Positions 12,658 to 52,100 of a stretch of DNA of 64,000 nt are shown piece by piece. Both the position numbers and the translations under genes were made by a program. Source of the DNA: Bolinopsis microptera (taxonomy: Eukaryota; Ctenophora; Tentaculata; Lobata; Bolinopsidae); the NCBI RefSeq assembly GCF_026151205.1, contig NC_087078.1, positions 18,309,118 through 18,373,117 on the forward strand, given 5' to 3'. The notes under the pieces are model-generated. The model worked only from the letters and a program-made list of their open reading frames with translations, was not told the DNA's origin and ran no database searches. How positions within the stretch are numbered: the stretch's first letter is position 1; each line of letters begins with the position of its first letter.

Positions 12658-15600
12658 CTATACAGTAGTGCTACCAATTCCTTTCTTAAAAGTAAAATAC
12701 TCACCTAATTTAGTGGTTGTAACAACCACGGTTGGATTTCTGCACTGTTCAGATTGACGTTCTCTTGTCAGATGTTTGTAGACACACTCTTCTGACGAAA
12801 CATAAGACATGTCCTCCTTCCAAGTTGTCCCTGAACAAGATTGTGGGTAGAAAAGTTGGATAATCCGCCAAATTACAAACATGAATCTATAATGATATAC
12901 AATTTTCATAATATTTCACCAAAAGAGATATCTTTACATGAAGAGCTCACCAATAAAGTTACTGAGCGGGGCCCAATGTCTGGTGAGAGTGGCAAAGTCC
13001 GTGTACAGATCCTCCGAGAGGTGGAGTTTACGCGCTGCACCCTTTAGAGACTTCCCACGAATGGGCACCGCGTGCGGCAGTTTGGTAAAGTGGTAGAGGA
13101 CCGGGTGTATGAAGTTACAGGTGTGAGCTCGGTATGGGTCCAACTGAAATATATGTGGCAAAATGTTACTAGGTATGGGTCCAACTGAAATATATGTGGC
13201 AAAATATTACTAGGTATGGGTCCAACTGAAATATTTGTGGTAAAATGTTACTAGGTATGGGTCCAACTGAAATATTTGTGGCAAAATGTTACTAGGTATG
13301 GGTCCAACTGAAATATATGTGGCAAAATGTTACTAGGTATGGGTCCAACTAAAATATATGTGGCAAAATGTTACTAGGTATGGGTCCAACTGAAATATTT
13401 GTGTTAAAATGTTACTTTTTAGGAGCTCGGTATGGGTCCAACTGAAATATTTGTGGTAAAATGTTGCTTTTAAGGAATTGGAATTCAAAAAGTTTTTGAG
13501 CCATTTTTTTGAACAGTTTTTTAAAGGAAAGGTATTGTTTAATTTATGTTTTGGGACAAAGTGAGAGTATTGTGTTGAGAATAATTGAACGGCTAATAAG
13601 CAACCGTTTGATGTGACCACCATTTTTCTAGGGAAGGGATTAAACGCGTTGTCGTGATCAACTTTGAAAACAAAAAGAAATGAGTAGAAACAACTAGAAA
13701 TACCTCTGTTCGGTCGAGCCTGAAAGGGTCTCCCCCAATCTGAGAGTACCCAGCCCCGTACTCCAGCCTCACCACAACCAGGTCTCGTGACACGTCACGT
13801 GGTTCTGCTAGCAACTCTGGATGGTTATCACGTGATTATTATTAATCACGTGGTTATTATTAATCACGTGGTTATTATTAATCACGTGGTCATTATCAAC
13901 AACACTAGTGCGGCTCCTTGAACATGTTTTACCCAAATATTATCGTGTCAAAATTATCATAAATCCGTTTGATTAAATCGTTTGCAATATTCATAGATCC
14001 TCAAATTAAGGAATTGTCTCCACGAAACGCTTTATCCTTACCGTGGATGCGATGCAGCAAGCCATGGGGGACATCCTTGAACACTTCGATAGTGTTTCCA
14101 CGCCGTAGGTACACATCCACCAGTACGTAGAACATCTGAGGTAGTAACTGTTACCAAGATACTGTTACCAAGATACTGTTACCAAGATACTGTTACCAAG
14201 ATACTGTTACCAAGATACTGTTACCAAGATACTGTTACCAAGATACTGTTACCAAGATACTGTTACCAAGATACTGTTACCAAGATACCAAGTAACTGTT
14301 ACCAAGATACAACGCTCTCAAGCTCATTACATATGTAATTGGAGGTAATTGGAAACATAAATATCATGTTTTTAGCTACGTAACACTACCAATGATCCTG
14401 GTAAACTCTGACCGGGCTATAACGGACTATTACTAAATTAGCTGTGCTGGTTTTAGTGGTTTATTGGTATCTATATGTTTCTTAGGACCTGGGCTTGTGA
14501 ATATTTGAGACAGCACCAAATTGAGCTGGTGTATACATTTTAAAAAGCATAATCTTACTTTTCTGAGTAAATCTGATTATGTGAACGAGTTTAAAGTGAT
14601 CGTCTGATAGTGGATCTGAAACTTTGATTAGATAAAAAGTAATAACCTGGTAAGGACCGTTCATTTCGTTCATTCTCTTCAGCATGAAGGAGACGATGCC
14701 ATAGAGAGGTACCGTCTCACTTGGCCACCTGATGGAAAGTATATTATATAGTTAAAGACTAGGTGATTACATCTTAATGATAGATTGCAAGCAATATAAA
14801 CTCTGTATGACTACGAATAGACAGAAAATTGGATGCGTAGACATGGATTCTTCTTCTTCGTAGGGGACATTATTATTCTCGTAGGGGACATGATGGATTA
14901 TTAGGGGTACCAGTACAATCACCATCGACAAACTTGGATTTTATAATGTTCTTGTTATTAAATTCTTTTACTACATTACAGTACCTACGGCGTCGTTCAT
15001 TGACTACTCCGATTCGTATTACAAAATCTACGATTTTGGTAACATGATAAAATATACAACAAAAATAAGATAATCAGACGATTAAAGTATCTTCAGATAA
15101 TCCAACTGACCTGATACCATTAGATCAGCCCTAACTTGGAGTGTGAGTGAGCTAGAATGTTCGGAATTTCACTCATTTAATAGTAACACGGTGATCTCCG
15201 TATGTGGCGGTAACAATTGGTAATTAATGAAAATGAAATCTCTGTCGTTGTGACCCTTTAAAGTATGTTCAGATAATCCAACTGACCTGATACCATGGTT
15301 CCTTGCTGCCAGGATCCAGGCCAGTGTACGGGAGGAGTATCTAAACCCGTGTATAAATCCTCCTGATGATACTCTCTTATCTAGCCCGTGTGTAATGGTG
15401 CCCGCTGAAAGATAAAGTTATCTAGACCGTGTGTAATGGTGCCCGCTGAAAAATAAAGTTCATTTATCTATCATCCTAATTGGAGAGTCAGTGAACTATC
15501 CTTACCCTTAAATTAACCTCGAACTTGTGTCTCAGACTTAACTTAAAGTTAAACTATCTGAAAAAGGCTAACAGAAGGGATAAGAAAGATTAAAAAGATG

Positions 15601-40115: not shown

Positions 40116-43100
40116 TCACAACTTGAAGCTTTCAACAGCTCTTGCAACCACCAAGTCCGCAATTGCGAGTGACGAGGTTGCAGCGGGAGAAGGCGCGTTC
40201 CGCACGTGCAACATCCCCGGACAAGATGTATCAAACTCGAAGTCATCAACAAGGGTTCCATCAACTGACATCGCTTGCGCTCGTACACCAGAGCTTCCCC
40301 TGCGGTAAGAATTTATTCTTAAACTTTACGTGAAGGTGAAAAGTGCAATTTCAAAAATCAAGTTATCAATATATTCAAAAGTTCAAATTGATATTGATCA
40401 TTTTGGAAAAATGAAGGTGTAAAGACGATGATATAAAATTATTTGAATGAATGTATCTAAAGAACGTGAAGACAAACGTGAACAATTATCCTAACATTTC
40501 AGATTTTAATCAGAAAATTGACAGACTCGTAAGTCATGACGTTACCTGACTAGATCAGCATATTTGACTTCAGGAATGAACTTTTGAAGATCTGCTAGTT
40601 GTAAAGGCAAGATAGCAGACTTTGCCATTTCATTCAAACCGTACGACAAGTTCGGTACTGCTAACTTCCACAGTCCACTGAGAAACAGAAGAGAATACAG
40701 GTACCAGGTGATTAACAACTTCGCGATCAATTAAAAATACAGATTAAATTAAATAAGACAGGATGAACCTGTAGTACAGGTCATGTACGTGTTTAACTTT
40801 TCCAAAGTTCAGCATTTTATTTTTTGAGTAGTAAAATATGAGAAGTTTCTAGAACATCGATAAAAAACTATCTCAGACAACCAGAGAGCCGCTAGCCAAT
40901 TTCAGACCACAAAGTAACCACAAATGCAGATTCATAGCTACACTGCTTCACACTTCAGAACTTGTTTATAACCAGATAGTGTGTAGCAAAACCGCCCAAC
41001 AAGTTGTTAAATATACTTTATAAATGGTGGGCTGTCACCATGTTCGGAGAATCGAATGATTATTGATAAGCTACAGATGGTAATAATGATGATATACTCT
41101 TCCTGCATCCAAATTAATCTTTATTAATATGCAAACGATTTCTTTCGAATATATTTGACTGAACAGTGAACTGAGATATATTGCCTCGAACTGTATTTTA
41201 TGGAGTCATTTATATTAGTTATGTACATTGTACATTGTACATTGTACAATGTACATTGTACATATATATAGAGTACTCAAGATATGTATAAAGTTGTTTT
41301 ATGTTTTATTGCTTAAGCTATTGTAATTTAATTTGTTCCACCGGTCTTCCTTGTAGACTTATCAGATCTTTAGGATGTTTATTGTTAACTAATTCAGATT
41401 TGTGTAAAGTTCGATAGTCAATAATTTGTATTTCGTGTAATATAATCACAGCTGGTCTTAAAAATACTTACCTAAATGTGGCCATTTCAGCAATATCTCT
41501 CTTACAAATACTTACCTAAATGTGGCCATTTCAGCAATATCTCTCTTACAAATACTTACCTAAATGTGGCCATTTCAGCAATATCTCTCTTACAAATACT
41601 TACCTAAATGTGGCCATTTCAGCAATATCTCTCTTACAAATACTTACCTAAATGTGGCCATTTCAGCAATATCTCTCTTATTAATACTTACCTAAATGTG
41701 GCCATTTCAGCAATATCTCTCTTATTAATACTTACCTAAATGTGGCCATTTCAGCAATATCTCTCTTAAAAACACTTACCTAAATGTGGCCATTTCAGCA
41801 ATATCTCTCTTATTAATACTTACCTAAATGTGGCCATTTCAGCAATATCTCTCTTACAAATACTTACCTAAATGTGGCCATTTCAGCAATATCTCTCTTA
41901 CAAATACTTACCTAAATGTGGCCATTTCAGCAATATCTCTCTTATTAATACTTACCTAAATGTGGCCATTTCAGCAATATCTCTCTTACAAATACTTACC
42001 TAAATGTGGCCATTTCAGCAATATCTCTCTTACAAATACTTACCTAAATGTGGCCATTTCAGCAATATCTCTCTTATTAATACTTACCTAAATGTGGCCA
42101 TTTCAGCAATATCTCTCTTACAAATACTTACCTAAATGTGGCCATTTCAGCAATATCTCTCTTACAAATACTTACCTAAATGTGGCCATTTCAGCAATAT
42201 CTCTCTTATTAATACTTACCTAAATGTGGCCATTTCAGCAATATCTCTCTTATTAATACTTACCTAAATGTGGCCATTTCAGCAATATCTCTCTTACAAA
42301 TACTTACCTAAATGTGGCCATTTCAGCAATATCTCTCTTACAAATACTTACCTAAATGTGGCCATTTCAGCAATATCTCTCTTACAAATACTTACCTAAA
42401 TGTGGCCATTTCAGCAATATCTGTCTTACAAATACTTACCTAAATGTGGCCATTTCAGCAATATCTCTCTTATTAATACTTACCTAAATGTGGCCATTTC
42501 AGCAATATCTCTCTTACAAATACTTACCTAAATGTGGCCATTTCAGCAATATCTCTCTTACAAATACTTACCTAAATGTGGCCATTTCAACAATATCTCT
42601 CTTACAAATACTTACCTAAATGTGGCCATTTCAACAATATCTCTCTTATTAATACTTACCTAAATGTGGCCATTTCAGCAATATCTCTCTTACAAATACT
42701 TACCTAAATGTGGCCATTTCAGCAATATCTCTCTTATTAATACTTACCTAAATGTGGCCATTTCAGCAATATCTCTCTTATAAATACTTACCTAAATGTG
42801 GCCATTTCAGCAATATCTCTCTTATTAATACTCGAGCGGGAGTAACCCTCTCGTGAACCCGCTAATACAGCATTAGGACCTGCAAATAGATTAAATAATA
42901 AATAACACTCTGACATAGCAATAATTCGACAGTAAATTGATTGTTTAAGACATTACGGCTCATCAATGTTCAATAAACTGTGACGTATCACATACGATGG
43001 TCTACAATGGAGTCAATGGTGCACTAACCGAGCCATATAGATCCATCCATTCGTGGGGTATAGTGCACACCGAGGAAAGGGAACTTGGGGTTTGGGACCT

Positions 43101-46100
43101 GATGATAGGCTGCATGAAATTCATATATTAGAGCTTATCAGGAAACAATTTGAGGATACGATTGGGAAAGTATTTTGAGAATCAGTAGCAGTTAAATTAA
43201 CTACATAACATATGAAAACTAACAATTATCAATCAAATCAGGAAATTATACGGATAGATCTCCAAACCGGGTAAATGTTGCCCCTGACAAGATATCTCTT
43301 TTCTGGTCTCAACTCCAAGTATTCTCCTCTGAATGGAACTATTGTAGGACTACTCTTACCACCAGCATTCGCAGCAACCCTAGTTAATTATGGTTCATTT
43401 TCACAGCAACCCTGGTTAATTATGGTTCATTTTCACAGCAACCCTGGTTAATTATGGTTCATTTTCGCAGCAACCCTGGTTAATTATGGTTCATTTTCAC
43501 AGCAACCCTGGTTAATTATGGTTCATTTTCACAGCAACCCTAGTTAATTATGGTTCATTTTCGCAGCAACCCTAGTTAATTATGGTTCATTTCATATGAG
43601 TACTTATTCAGCATTTGAATACTACAGTGCAAGCAAGTTCATTCGCTTCAAAATATCGTGGTGATAAACTGAAATGAGGTTTACAATATAAACTTTAATT
43701 GTTCAGATGGTAACCTGTCAGAATAGAGTCCAGCACAGGTGATCACGTTCTTAGCAGTGATTCTGGATTTGTCCTTGCAATTAACTCGTATCTCTTTTCC
43801 TACATCTTTTATTGTGTCAACCTGCGGACATGACGTAGTACAAACTCTTCAATCGGGACGTTAATTTCAATTAATTTATCACAAATAATTAATTATCACA
43901 TAAACGTATGATCACAAGCTGTTTAACTCGAACGTTTTGAAACCATTTCCATTTATTTGTTGCGGCTAAGAGGCTTATGTGGGGTCAAATGGTTATTTAT
44001 GTTCTCGATAAAAGTTTAAAATGCTGTACTTAAATAATGTAACATAAAAATACAATATGTATAATATCAAGCACACTCTATCGTAATATGAAAACCCAGC
44101 ATGCTATTTCTTAATACCATAATGGCATGATTGTCCAAATTCCAAAAAGCGATTATAATAACTAAACCACAACTTCTTTAAAAGGTGTTATCTTCTCTCG
44201 TCTCCCCCTTATAACGTATCTGTAAAACATGAACATGGTGGTCATCAGGAGGGTTACAGCAAACGTCACCACCGCCAACAAAACCACGATTACATTAGAG
44301 TCATCCCCTGACTTTCCACTACCGTCTCCAATTACTCCACTGGAATCCAAAGTGTTCTCGTTATCAGCGTCAACAGAACTCTTGTCATTTCGTCGTTTCT
44401 CTCCTGCTAAGTTCATCGTCTTTTCATCGTCAGAATGTTCACTACAAGGAGTACCCACCATCACCATCTCACACCATCTCCTATATTCCAGCTCCACATC
44501 CCTCTCACAACACGTGGTCATGTTGGGTGATATCACCACACTGACACCAGATACCACCCTCCCCCTCTCCACTGAGACCTGCTCCACCACGTGAGGGGAC
44601 TGTGGTATTTTAGGTGAGGTAGCTGTTTTTATACCCACCTCCAGAGGGTGGTTGTAGGAGGAGAGGGAGGAAAGGGACGCTGGAATATTCTGGTAGAGGA
44701 AGAGTATAGTGCCGTTAGAGTACAGATGGCATTGGAATGTGAAGAATGCAGGAGGTTCCCCATCCTGGTAGCTGGGGTGAAGTTCATCAGATTCACTGTC
44801 CATATCATGGTTCAGTTGCATATCTCTCCATTCCACCACAAACACATTGTCCAGGGGGAGAATGCTGATCTTGGGAGGATTCTGAGGGTTGGGAATGAAG
44901 TCTGCCATCAGAGGAGCAATGTACCCAGCCACTCCAGTGTGAGGCACTGCGCTAAACGTACTCAGATACAGGAACCCAGAGGAGGTTGTTGTGATGACGT
45001 CACCTGGTGATGACGTCATGCTTTTGTCACGTGACGTGTTGTAGAAAGGGAAGGAAAAGAGGGATTGTGTGGTAGTGCTAGCCAGATAGGATCTAGATAG
45101 TATCTCGCGAGTAGAGTTGGGAGGGAGGGGTATCCAGTGGTCCAGGTCTTCTTTGTATGTTACTGTGTACCATGAGTCAGCATAGCTTACTGGAGAGCTC
45201 AAACATAGCAAGAGCAGGAATTTAATCATGTTTATGGGATGGTTAGTATATTAGAATGTTTGCTAAAACGGAAACTGAGGTGAATGAGTTTCGCTGTCGC
45301 AGTTTTATACCAGTTCTGGTGTAATGGAATGATGGTGTGGTGAAATTGGTGTACGAATATTTGGCATACTGATTGAGGAATCTGATGTCCGCATGATAAC
45401 TTGTCATCTAATTGAGGTATCTGGTCGCATTATCTCGAGTATCTCATGAGAATTAGAATCTGGAATTCTATGGCGTGTCAGATGATTAAGAGGAGTGTCA
45501 TGTCACATATTGTCATGCGATCCTCTTTAGTTGAGTTAAGCGTGTCCGGTGTTACTTTTTCACCGACTTGATAACAGTCATGTTTACTGGGCCGCGCTCA
45601 GCCTGTCATTCCGCCTAATCTTAATGAACATGATAGCCTGAGGTCCCCAGGTAACAGTCATGTTTGTTTTGGTTCATTATCCGACACGCTGAACACATGC
45701 TTCCGATAGATACTGTCTAGTCGCGCGACCGGAAACACGAAAACGTGTTTCTGTGATTCATCGCTATGTTTTCAATACATCAGAGCATCGAAAACTAGTA
45801 ATAGCAAGTCAAACAAGACTAAGTTAAAATTATAGATAGATCTATACTAGTCAATTTGTAAGAAAATCGACTAACCTCTCTCCCGGTCAGGATTGTGCCA
45901 CCACCAGCCATGAAATCATCCCCATAACTGCATGCCACTCTCTTCCAATCAACAATACCAGTGTTCGGGGAATGTATAGCCATGAGTCCGCCCTAAAGGA
46001 ACGATTATGGTTAACATGCTTTTTTAACCCTAAATACCAATTAACCACGACAAAAATTGTCATGAATATTCAATTAGATTCATTCAACCACAAAAAATTC

Positions 46101-49100
46101 ATTGGCCAGGTGCCCAGGTTGGTGATTATATGATAAGTTTATGTCGATAAGATAAAGTTTGGAGAACATTGCGAGGTTCTCAGGTTCATGTCGGGTGCCA
46201 ACTAATCTGCAGAGATGTGCTTGTAACGTGCTTGTAACGTGCTTGTAACGTCACAGCACACACGAAGGTCTAGTGCATGTCATTAATTTGATATCCGTCT
46301 TACCGATTGAAAGTGCAGCAAGATCCCAAGTTTATTGTATACTCAAGAAGTGTGGTACAGTAGAATAAAGTTGTTCGCACATAGTTTTTGACGAGAAGTA
46401 CAGTTAACTTCGAGAAAATTTGCAGTTGAGAAGCAACTAGGAAGGAGCAATCAAATTCTGAACAGTAGGGGACCACTTTTTGTAGTTGCATGCAATTCAG
46501 TAATAATATAGTTAGATGGTTTCACGCAAAAATGTCCTTTTCAAGATTGCAACTTTCATGTCACAAAGGTCCGCTATAAAATGTGATGTTTAATGTAACT
46601 TACTAATTACTGACTATAGTTAAGAATATCTACAAAGAATTTAACGTTTAACTTACAGTGCAGTAGGGTTCTATCTCCAATATCTGTTGTCTATCTACGA
46701 GAGCTAAACCGGGAACTTCATTCTTGAGACCAATCTGGTAAAGCGCATCTAATCTCGATACCTCCTCCTCATTTGTAGCTACTATCAACTGTAATTAAGT
46801 GATTACTAGGCTTAATTGTATAATTACATGTGGTAGTTACAGGAAATTAATTTATAAGAATGTTGCAGAGCCAATAAGATGTTAATCTCAATTTATTGCA
46901 GGTAGATGCTATAGTCTAGATGGTGAAATATATTGTGTAATAAATATTCTAATACTAAAAGCTGCTCAGCTGTGTCTTCTTAGAGGATGGGATTCCTTAA
47001 AATTGAAGACACTGCTATAATTTGCGAGGTCAAAGCTAGGGTAAGGATCGGTATTTTCTGCATAATCTGAGAAAGTGAATCACAACAATATTTTGAAGGC
47101 CATATGATGGCCAAATGTTACAGTAGCTCAATAATATCAAGACCGTGTCATTCCTGTCATTTATTAGCAGGGAATTGGGCGTTTCTGTGTAAAATCCTGT
47201 TTCCAAATCATCTATAAACTTGTGATATATTCAAACTATTTGATTTTTCGGCAGAACTTTACCTTTGGTGCCTCAGAACTATGCTTCATTTGTACTAATT
47301 CAGCTGAACATACTTCAAATAATTTTTACAATTCCAAAATTCCGTAAATTTTACAAACTTTGCCACAGCGTTTGTAAGGAATAGCTTTCTCGTCACAGTA
47401 CTCATATGTTCTCCGGGCACCCTCTCCGCATAACCGCGCTTTTAGCGAGCCAGGAGTGTAGTATATTCCCATGTGGATAACACCACTGTTGTGCCCGGTT
47501 TGGTGGGTCGCTGAAATTAGGGAAGCGGTGGATACCTATCTGATTATACTATGCGAAATACCAACGAATTGATGAAGGAAATAGGCATCAAAAACAGTGT
47601 GTGTCGTTTAATTTTAAAATAACATCACTGTCAAGCCAAAGCAGTGGTGCCAACTGACAATAACCAACATCACAAATACTTTAACTATAAAACAAACTAA
47701 CCAAGTTCATCCTCTTTCTCTAACACAACTATTTTCACGTCAGGATATTTTATATTAAGAGCTCGGGCTGTCCCTAGTCCGACTATTCCACCTCCAACTA
47801 TGCAGATATCATAGTTCTGACTGAAGGAATGTAAGTGTTTAATATATTTATACATTCTGTTGCGGATATTATATCAAGCAGGGAAATAACCCCTGCATAG
47901 TGCATATAATACGGATACCCTAACTTAACTCCTAATTTACACTTTTTCTATTACTCTTGGGCATTTTACTATTACTCTTCGGGCATTTTAAACTTTTAAA
48001 CCCTTATAAAGACACATCATTCAGTTCAGATAGCCTCTCCCCTTCTTAATTTATGGATGCGGTCCTATATATAGGGCGTGGAGACGTGAAATAACAGGAC
48101 TCTACGGCGTGGAGACGTGAAATAACAGGACTCTACGGCGTGGAGACGTGAAATAACAGGACTCTACGGCGTGGAGACGTGAAACAACAGGACTCTACGG
48201 CATGGAGACGTGAAATAACAGGACTCTACGGCATGGAGACGTGAAATAACAGGACTCTACGGCATGGAGACGTGAAATAACAGGACTCTACGGCATGGAG
48301 ACGTGAAATAACAGGACTCTACGGCGTGGAAACGTGAAATAACAGGACTCTACGGCGTGGAGACGTGAAATAACAGGACTCTACGGCGTGGAGACGTGAA
48401 ATAAAAGGACTCTACGGCGTGGAGACGTGAAATAACAGGACTCTACGGCGTGGAGACGTGAAATAACAGGACTCTACGGCATGGAGACGTGAAATAACAG
48501 GACTCTACGGCGTGGAGACGTGAAATAACAGGACTCTACGGCGTGGAGACGTGAAATAAAAGGACTCTACGGCGTGGAGACGTGAAATAACAGGACTCTA
48601 CGGCGTGGAGACGTGAAATAACAGGACTCTACGGCGTGGAGACGTGAAATAACAGGACTCTACGGCGTGGAGACGTGAAATAAAAGGACTCTACGGCGTG
48701 GAAACGTGAAATAACAGGACTCTACGGCATGGAGACGTGAAATAACAGGACTCTACGGCATGGAGACGTGAAATAACAGGACTCTACGGCGTGGAGACGT
48801 GAAATAACAGGACTCTACGGCGTGGAGACGTGAAATAACAGGACTCTACGGCGTGGAGACGTGAAATAACAGGACTCTACGGCATGGAGACGTGAAATAA
48901 CAGGACTCTACGGCATGGAGACGTGAAATAACAGGACTCTACGGCGTGGAGACGTGAAATAAAAGGACTCTACGGCGTGGAAACGTGAAATAACAGGACT
49001 CTACGGCATGGAGACGTGAAATAACAGGACTCTACGGCATGGAGACGTGAAATAACAGGACTCTACGGCGTGGAGACGTGAAATAACAGGACTCTACGGC

Positions 49101-52100
49101 GTGGAGACGTGAAATAACAGGACTCTACGGCGTGGAGACGTGAAATAACAGGACTCTACGGCGTGGAGACGTGAAATAACAGGACTCTACGGCGTGGAGA
49201 CGTGAAATAACAGGACTCTACGGCATGGAGACGTGAAATAACAGGACTCTACGGCATGGAGACGTGAAATAACAGGACTCTACGGCGTGGAGACGTGAAA
49301 TAACAGGACTCTACGGCGTGGAGACGTGAAATAAAAGGACTCTACGGCGTGGAAACGTGAAATAACAGGACTCTACGGCATGGAGACGTGAAATAACAGG
49401 ACTCTACGGCATGGAGACGTGAAATAACAGGACTCTACGGCGTGGAGACATGAAATAACAGGACTCTACGGCGTGGAGACGTGAAATAACAGGACTCTAC
49501 GGCGTGGAGACGTGAAATAAAAGGACTCTACGGCGTGGAGACGTGAAATAAAAGGACTCTACGGTGTGGAGACGTGAAATAACAGGACTCTACGGCGTGG
49601 AGACGTGAAATAACAGGACTCTACGGCGTGGAGACGTGAAATAACAGGACTCTACGGCATGGAGACGTGAAATAACAGGACTCTACGGCATGGAGACGTG
49701 AAACAACAGGACTCTACGGCATGGAGACGTGAAATAGCAGGACTCTACGGCATGGAGACGTGAAATAACAGGACTCTACGGCATGGAGACGTGAAATAAC
49801 AGGACTCTACGGCATGGAGACGTGAAATAACAGGACTCTACGGCGTGGAAACGTGAAATAACAGGACTCTACGGCGTGGAGACGTGAAATAACAGGACTC
49901 TACGGCGTGGAGACGTGAAATAAAAGGACTCTACGGCGTGGAGACGTGAAATAACAGGACTCTACGGCGTGGAGACGTGAAATAACAGGACTCTACGGCA
50001 TGGAGACGTGAAATAACAGGACTCTACGGCGTGGAGACGTGAAATAACAGGACTCTACGGCGTGGAGACGTGAAATAAAAGGACTCTACGGCGTGGAGAC
50101 GTGAAATAACAGGACTCTACGGCGTGGAGACGTGAAATAACAGGACTCTACGGCGTGGAGACGTGAAATAAGAGGACTCTACGGCGTGGAGACGTGAAAT
50201 AAAAGGACTCTACGGCGTGGAAACGTGAAATAACAGGACTCTACGGCATGGAGACGTGAAATAACAGGACTCTACGGCATGGAGACGTGAAATAACAGGA
50301 CTCTACGGCGTGGAGACGTGAAATAACAGGACTCTACGGCGTGGAGACGTGAAATAACAGGACTCTACGGCGTGGAGACGTGAAATAACAGGACTCTACG
50401 GCATGGAGACGTGAAATAACAGGACTCTACGGCATGGAGACGTGAAATAACAGGACTCTACGGCGTGGAGACGTGAAATAAAAGGACTCTACGGCGTGGA
50501 AACGTGAAATAACAGGACTCTACGGCATGGAGACGTGAAATAACAGGACTCTACGGCATGGAGACGTGAAATAACAGGACTCTACGGCGTGGAGACGTGA
50601 AATAACAGGACTCTACGGCGTGGAGACGTGAAATAACAGGACTCTACGGCGTGGAGACGTGAAATAACAGGACTCTACGGCGTGGAGACGTGAAATAACA
50701 GGACTCTACGGCGTGGAGACGTGAAATAACAGGACTCTACGGCATGGAGACGTGAAATAACAGGACTCTACGGCATGGAGACGTGAAATAACAGGACTCT
50801 ACGGCGTGGAGACGTGAAATAACAGGACTCTACGGCGTGGAGACGTGAAATAAAAGGACTCTACGGCGTGGAAACGTGAAATAACAGGACTCTACGGCAT
50901 GGAGACGTGAAATAACAGGACTCTACGGCATGGAGACGTGAAATAACAGGACTCTACGGCGTGGAGACATGAAATAACAGGACTCTACGGCGTGGAGACG
51001 TGAAATAACAGGACTCTACGGCGTGGAGACGTGAAATAACAGGACTCTACGGCGTGGAGACGTGAAATAACAGGACTCTACGGCGTGGAGACGTGAAATA
51101 AAAGGACTCTACGGCGTGGAGACGTGAAATAACAGGACTCTACGGCGTGGAGACGTGAAATAAAAGGACTCTACGGTGTGGAGACGTGAAATAACAGGAC
51201 TCTACGGCGTGGAGACGTGAAATAACAGGACTCTACGGCGTGGAGACGTGAAATAACAGGACTCTACGGCATGGAGACGTGAAATAACAGGACTCTACGG
51301 CATGGAGACGTGAAATAACAGGACTCTACGGCGTGGAGACGTGAAATAACAGGACTCTACGGCGTGGAGACGTGAAATAATAACAGGACTCTACGGCGGC
51401 GACAAAAAATTGTTCCTATTTCTGAAAACAATAGATATAATTTTATATTTCTAAATTACCTAACTCGTTAATATGTATCATGACAGGTTAAATTATGACC
51501 GTTAATTAAAAATATTGACCGTTAAAAAACCTTTTTTTTGAAATACATTTTTAACTGCCATAAAATTATCATTTGAGGTAAGATGACCGTGGTCCCAGGG
51601 AGTGTTCTTTATCGTATACAAAATTTATCGACCTAAGATATATAATAGCCGATGAAATGTAACGCTGAAAAAGCAAGTAAACACAACGTAATGAAAACAA
51701 AACCGATGATAATTTTATTCCAATAATATTTGCACGCGCAACACCTTTAATAGACAACTTTTAATTATCAAAAATTTTCAAGTGGGTGGTCACATCTATT
51801 TAATCGGGGCTTTTTTCACATCTCCACGCCGTAGAGTCCTGTTTTGTACGGCCCTACCGTAGAGTTTTGCTCCGTAGAGTCTCACGCTGAAGAGTCTCGG
51901 ACCCCATATAACCGACTGATGAAATGAATGAGTAAACACTAATGTATCGTTATTTCATTGAATAATTCTGGTGAGGTAAATATATATTGTATAATAACGC
52001 ACTCTAAATACACTAAATTATTACAATAATTCTCTCCGACCTCTCATTTTGACAACTACCCACTCATTTAACCATGACCGCATGATTTAGTTTTGAAATG

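Follow-up and report, generated by a model that had tools for sequence, protein, structure and literature searches.

A 31-copy minisatellite across an exon-intron boundary of L2HGDH in the ctenophore Bolinopsis microptera, most likely a passive 5' 'mirage'

The window analysed here, 64,000 nucleotides of Bolinopsis microptera contig NC_087078.1 (assembly GCF_026151205.1), carries a gene on its minus strand with 10 placed exons (47820 to 40116). Spliced together through the first of a long series of repeated splice donors, they form an uninterrupted reading of 404 codons, stop codon included. A 400-aa version of the product scored 501 bits against an L-2-hydroxyglutarate oxidase model (cut-off 299) and matched Pfam DAO, and comparison with PDB 8w75 (E 2.6e-133) left the joint between exons 8 and 9 ungapped. 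Judged by its sequence, the host of the array is an intact L2HGDH gene. The first-pass annotation had likewise named L2HGDH, and only its exon number needs revision, from 9 to 8 of the 10 placed; exon numbers here count only the 10 conserved exons placed, not those possibly lying further upstream. The nine introns measure 149 to 2114 nt, and the array begins inside exon 8 and occupies the initial 1.3 kb of intron 8. The relevant features are listed below, a slash marking a splice boundary.

42792..42879, minus strand: L2HGDH exon 8 of 10 placed, 88 nt; the unit's exonic part has its first, authentic copy in the closing 41 nt
42786..42791, minus strand: donor 1 (GTAAGT), the sole donor keeping the frame into exon 9, from translation
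40678..42791, minus strand: intron 8, 2114 nt, array included
40546..40677, minus strand: L2HGDH exon 9, acceptor CTCAG/TGGACTG
41456..42832, minus strand: 44-bp tandem array, 31.3 copies, 31 donors (42791 to 41471), from Tandem Repeats Finder and donor positions
42820..42832, minus strand: exonic half of the seed repeat, AGTATTAATAAGA, from sequence comparison
41456..41468, minus strand: native intronic half of the seed repeat, past donor 31, AGTATTTTTAAGA, from sequence comparison
43368..43592, minus strand: acceptor-side array of 7 copies of a 32-bp unit, spanning the exon 6 acceptor of L2HGDH; the exon (43379-43268) begins in the last copy

Two further features accompany the gene. A 31-bp array of 107 copies (48075-51398) lies a short way upstream of the first placed exon, and an unbroken frame of 362 codons (44162-45250, minus) lies within intron 4 on the same strand as the gene. 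By eye, the start of this frame looks signal-like and one stretch looks membrane-like; its 355-aa peptide gave no Pfam match.

Tandem Repeats Finder assigned the array a period of 44, 31.3 copies, 97% matches, 0% indels and a score of 2551; its end, previously put at 42836, is 42832. In transcript sense, which is the minus strand, the array contains 31 donors (GTAAGTRTT) at 42791, 42747 and onward to 41471, and the earlier observation that the units do not change in length holds throughout, donor-to-donor spacing being exactly 44 bp in 30/30 gaps. The claim that every unit starts and ends alike is true with two exceptions: the donor reads GTAAGTATT in 30 of 31 cases and GTAAGTGTT in donor 24, and CACATTTAG forms the 3' end of 30 units, while unit 31 continues into unique intron. 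The full GTAAGT core is present in 31/31 donors, and the formal GT...AG units number 30. Two positions within the unit are variable (18 TG, 10 AA, 2 TT and 1 TA) and their order along the array is irregular; other changes are few, with private ones in units 4, 5, 9 and 24. BLAST against the genome (264,652,675 bases, 232 contigs) found the 44-bp unit nowhere outside this locus, where the repeat counts are lower bounds.

As had been proposed, the unit combines the end of an exon with the start of its intron, comprising the terminal 35 to 41 nt of exon 8 and the first intron nucleotides. The AGTATT microhomology reported at its edges is also present, the exonic copy and the first intronic copy lying exactly 44 bp apart, and it proves to be part of a longer similarity in which exonic AGTATTAATAAGA and native intronic AGTATTTTTAAGA agree at 11 of 13 positions. 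In a comparison made post hoc, a match of at least 11/13 at 44-bp distance occurred at 12 of 55,057 window positions, main arrays excluded. The variable positions of the unit are the sites at which the two seed halves differ, where the exon has AA and the intron TT; the TG subtype, we infer, originated later. From this comparison, the imperfect direct repeat probably seeded the array.

The choice of donor has a clear coding consequence. Joined to 40677, donor 1 yields ...EMATFSGLWKLA (product ...ATFSGLWKLA) and keeps the frame, whereas all four distal donors that were translated (2, 3, 10 and 31) yield ...EMATFR followed by a stop, in agreement with the prediction that only the exon-proximal donor preserves the frame. 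The remaining distal products meet the same AGG TAA, because their retained part also begins with unit 1. For 30/30 distal donors the retained stretch has GT at its start and TTTAG at its end, and its excision therefore restores the normal mRNA, a property that follows from the structure of the array.

Boundary arrays are not confined to exon 8. Besides the acceptor-side array at exon 6, the window contains a 41-bp array (13131-13476, minus) whose units mostly carry ATTTCAG/TTGGACC and which leads into an open frame; from its sequence it is likely a third boundary array, of the acceptor type, and the frame following it gave no Pfam match. Elsewhere in the genome, 30 further arrays with repeated AGGTAAGT were fetched from among the matches listed, with units ranging from 11 bp to some 55 bp. 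In 18 of the 30 loci, the frame that runs up to the first donor was scanned with Pfam; these are loci, four of which were also compared with PDB; an open frame alone was not counted as genic, and three loci with frames of at least 90 nt (L012, L024 and L030) lie outside the 18. Recognisable genes ended in such arrays in 6 of the 18 scanned loci, four of them clear and two under curated cut-offs. Two exceeded the Pfam cut-off, an M14 carboxypeptidase (L015, E 7.3e-11) and an ADAM-type protease (L018, Reprolysin, 8.4e-5), and two were recognised through PDB, an ABCA transporter (L017, 9.8e-17) and an axonemal dynein heavy chain (L028, 2.9e-13). The pair under the curated cut-off comprised WD40 (L016, 6.2e-5, MABP1/WDR62 model) and Sushi (L027, 0.0038) matches. 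Pfam gave nothing reliable for the other 12 scanned loci, one of which (L019) had a single match at E 0.067, and L007 and L009 had no PDB match either.

Several of these loci showed peculiarities of their own. With 73 exact copies of AGGTAAGT, the 47-bp array that ends an open frame at L007:2036-5417 is longer than that of L2HGDH. Beside the donor-motif array of the dynein heavy chain, a coding exon contains an exact in-frame 171-bp tandem duplication (L028:1660-1986), which either arose recently or is an artefact of assembly. One 32-bp donor-motif array family occupies two sites on contig C1 (L023, C1:36576, and L024, C1:761375) with similar downstream flanks. Selection on decoy donors was also considered, donor 9-mers differing at 55 of 3357 sites vs 335 of 12504 in the remaining sequence of 18 arrays; this comparison was not taken as evidence, because the arrays had been picked by an exact donor word, L001 and L022 point the opposite way and the unit consensus of L028 is unreliable.

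The L2HGDH array as such plainly exceeds chance; preferential seeding of arrays at donors was examined with word counts. Triples of AGGTAAGT at 20-50 bp spacing gave 1380 matches vs 12 for the reversed word, and triples of AGGTGAGT, a word of differing base composition, gave 1294 vs 185; further control words gave 110, 331, 398, 152, 531 and 256. The two donor words had the two highest totals of ten words (others 12 to 531), totals that are driven by few long arrays. As a single word, AGGTAAGT occurred 10,772 times and its reverse 7,977 times. Among the matches listed, arrays on contig C1 numbered 5 for AGGTAAGT, 7 for AAGTGGTA, 1 for TAGGATGA and 0 for GAGTATGA, with at least 9 for AGGTGAGT (first 17.6 Mb). 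In a sample of arrays not picked by motif, which is not fully neutral (12 in the window, 37 beside fetched donor arrays), a strong donor occurred in 1/49, the L2HGDH array itself, and in 0/49 reversed units. Because control words reached 531 and the C1 array counts overlap, preferential seeding was set aside and enrichment is not claimed. The simplest view is that the genome is rich in minisatellites, some of which land on splice boundaries and survive because the adjoining exon stays intact.

Tandem repeats across exon-intron boundaries have been described in amphioxus as 'mirages', in Adh3 (10-72 bp) and in globins (150-160 bp) (PMC3087553). The globins concerned are BflGb6 and BflGb9 (PMC3087553; PMC3902484), and TnC and PGBD5 are given as additional cases (PMC3902484). 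Mirages are reported to occur at 5' as well as 3' boundaries, to contain AG/GT signals in many cases and to be unstable in length; Adh3 data and globin RT-PCR are cited for their leaving splicing undisturbed (PMC3087553). The L2HGDH array likewise consists of minisatellite-like tandem repeats (period 44, 31.3 copies), its unit crosses an exon-intron boundary, and the authentic boundary is kept at the array's edge in an intact gene. It differs from the amphioxus cases in belonging to another phylum, in having 31 copies of 44 bp at 97% identity, and in sharing one gene with an acceptor array. A search of the open-licence literature found no report of mirages outside lancelets and, by title and abstract, no related paper on ctenophore minisatellites. 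The array seems to be a real 5' mirage, a known phenomenon in what is apparently a new phylum.

Human IFI6 (6-16), with a minisatellite unit of 12 bp, offers another likeness, with tandem repeats at an exon end and one donor per repeat. There, the minisatellite is described as giving multiple donors (Turri 1995), and two repeat units lying downstream reportedly act as donors that yield protein isoforms (PMC4526556). The donor is also repeated at the exon end in L2HGDH, but its downstream donors do not add codons free of stops: distal donors run into a stop, as donors 2, 3, 10 and 31 do at once. Intron gain through AGGT tandem duplication (Rogers 1989 model, PMC4974935) is comparable in that doubling AG/GT gives formal GT...AG segments. 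Unlike in that model, a real donor has been copied here and the copies lie inside an existing intron.

In our assessment the array is very probably an exon-intron boundary minisatellite, a 5' mirage that is most likely passive within intron 8; the 'passive minisatellite' that the first-pass annotation had named as the outcome refuting its own reading is the likeliest answer. The first tandem duplication would have arisen by slippage or end joining across the imperfect 13-mer, after which unequal exchange may have raised the copies to 31 and interspersed AA with TG subtypes. Splicing at exon-proximal donor 1 would excise the 2114-nt intron and with it the entire array, leaving donors 2-31 as decoys of presumably little effect, and such duplications would be tolerated because the original exon remains intact alongside. 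The uniformly spaced array, the L2HGDH identity, the reading kept open by donor 1, the seed repeat, the second boundary array in L2HGDH and the donor-motif arrays at M14, ADAM-type, ABCA and dynein exon ends argue for this reading, as does, by analogy, the amphioxus precedent with its reportedly undisturbed splicing. Against it stand the reported use of decoys in IFI6 and the full core of all 31 donors, the donor scoring 9.19, among the gene's best on a small matrix. Those strong cores, the repeats used as donors in IFI6 (PMC4526556) and the immediate stop of 4/4 translated distal products would all suit expression tuning, in which some transcripts take distal donors, hit the stop and decay, so that copy number sets L2HGDH output. 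We nevertheless consider tuning unlikely: amphioxus mirages are reported to have no effect on splicing (PMC3087553; PMC3902484), and there is no trustworthy sign of constraint on the donors, the comparison being biased. That the assembly process added or collapsed copies is the least credible explanation; although the array comes from a single assembly, and the exact 171-bp coding duplication in L028 could be of such a kind, the irregular subtype order, the private changes in units 4, 5, 9 and 24 and the many unrelated arrays of like kind in the genome speak against it.

A recursive splice point places an acceptor with a polypyrimidine tract immediately before a donor, and recursive splicing at an AG/GTAAGT junction would leave a zero-length exon. 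The L2HGDH array has this junction, and its 30 formal GT...AG units had been read as a ratchet layout, in which units could be excised singly or severally at TTTAG/GTAAGT points; in a variant, a distal-donor transcript would be repaired in a further splicing step joining donor 1 to the final TTTAG, and for all 30 distal donors excision of the GT...TTTAG retained stretch does give the normal mRNA. The layout itself, however, is automatic, because tandem copying of any AG/GT boundary yields GT...AG units with zero-length exons. No polypyrimidine acceptor directly precedes the donor: the pyrimidine share before the unit's AG is 0.5, and its acceptor scores -0.11 vs 3.83 to 9.54 for nine real L2HGDH acceptors (each left out when scored), on a small matrix built from the gene's own sites (10 acceptors), so that the comparison does no more than weaken stepwise removal. 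The tenth real acceptor, within the exon 6 array, scores -4.04. The unit's acceptor resembles a random AG, 28% of the 491 AGs in the gene scoring at least as high, and its 44 nt fall far short of the gene's shortest intron (149 nt). The short uniform units and the 2.1-kb intron likewise set the array apart from recursive splice points, and the unit sizes of the genome's other donor-motif arrays, 11 to about 55 bp, fit minisatellite turnover better than intron machinery. Ratchet or stepwise splicing is accordingly very unlikely in our judgement. A related proposal, that the array is self-correcting, in that any first donor leaves a stretch with the form of a GT...AG intron and its excision gives back an identical mRNA, appears improbable; if true, a second splicing round could render AG/GT-donor expansions harmless and could account for the persistence of such arrays in several genes of this genome.

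Boundary minisatellites, known from lancelets, appear to be extended by this array to a ctenophore, one genome of which holds several genic cases. The array also constitutes a natural experiment, its 31 donors having the same GTAAGT core and near-identical context and differing in little but distance from the exon. The donor used among them would directly measure the proximal-donor rule.

A separate observation concerns glutamate receptors. The ligand-binding domain PF10613 had 32 genome matches, 14 of which lie in open frames of more than 500 codons, and from these frames many glutamate receptors seem to lack introns across the PF10613 region. Receptor frames L031 and L036 best matched kainate receptors. 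For the L034 frame the best PDB match, which points to a ctenophore distinct from Mnemiopsis, was 'ML032222a iGluR', with 188/260 aligned residues identical (72%), ML names denoting the ctenophore Mnemiopsis leidyi.
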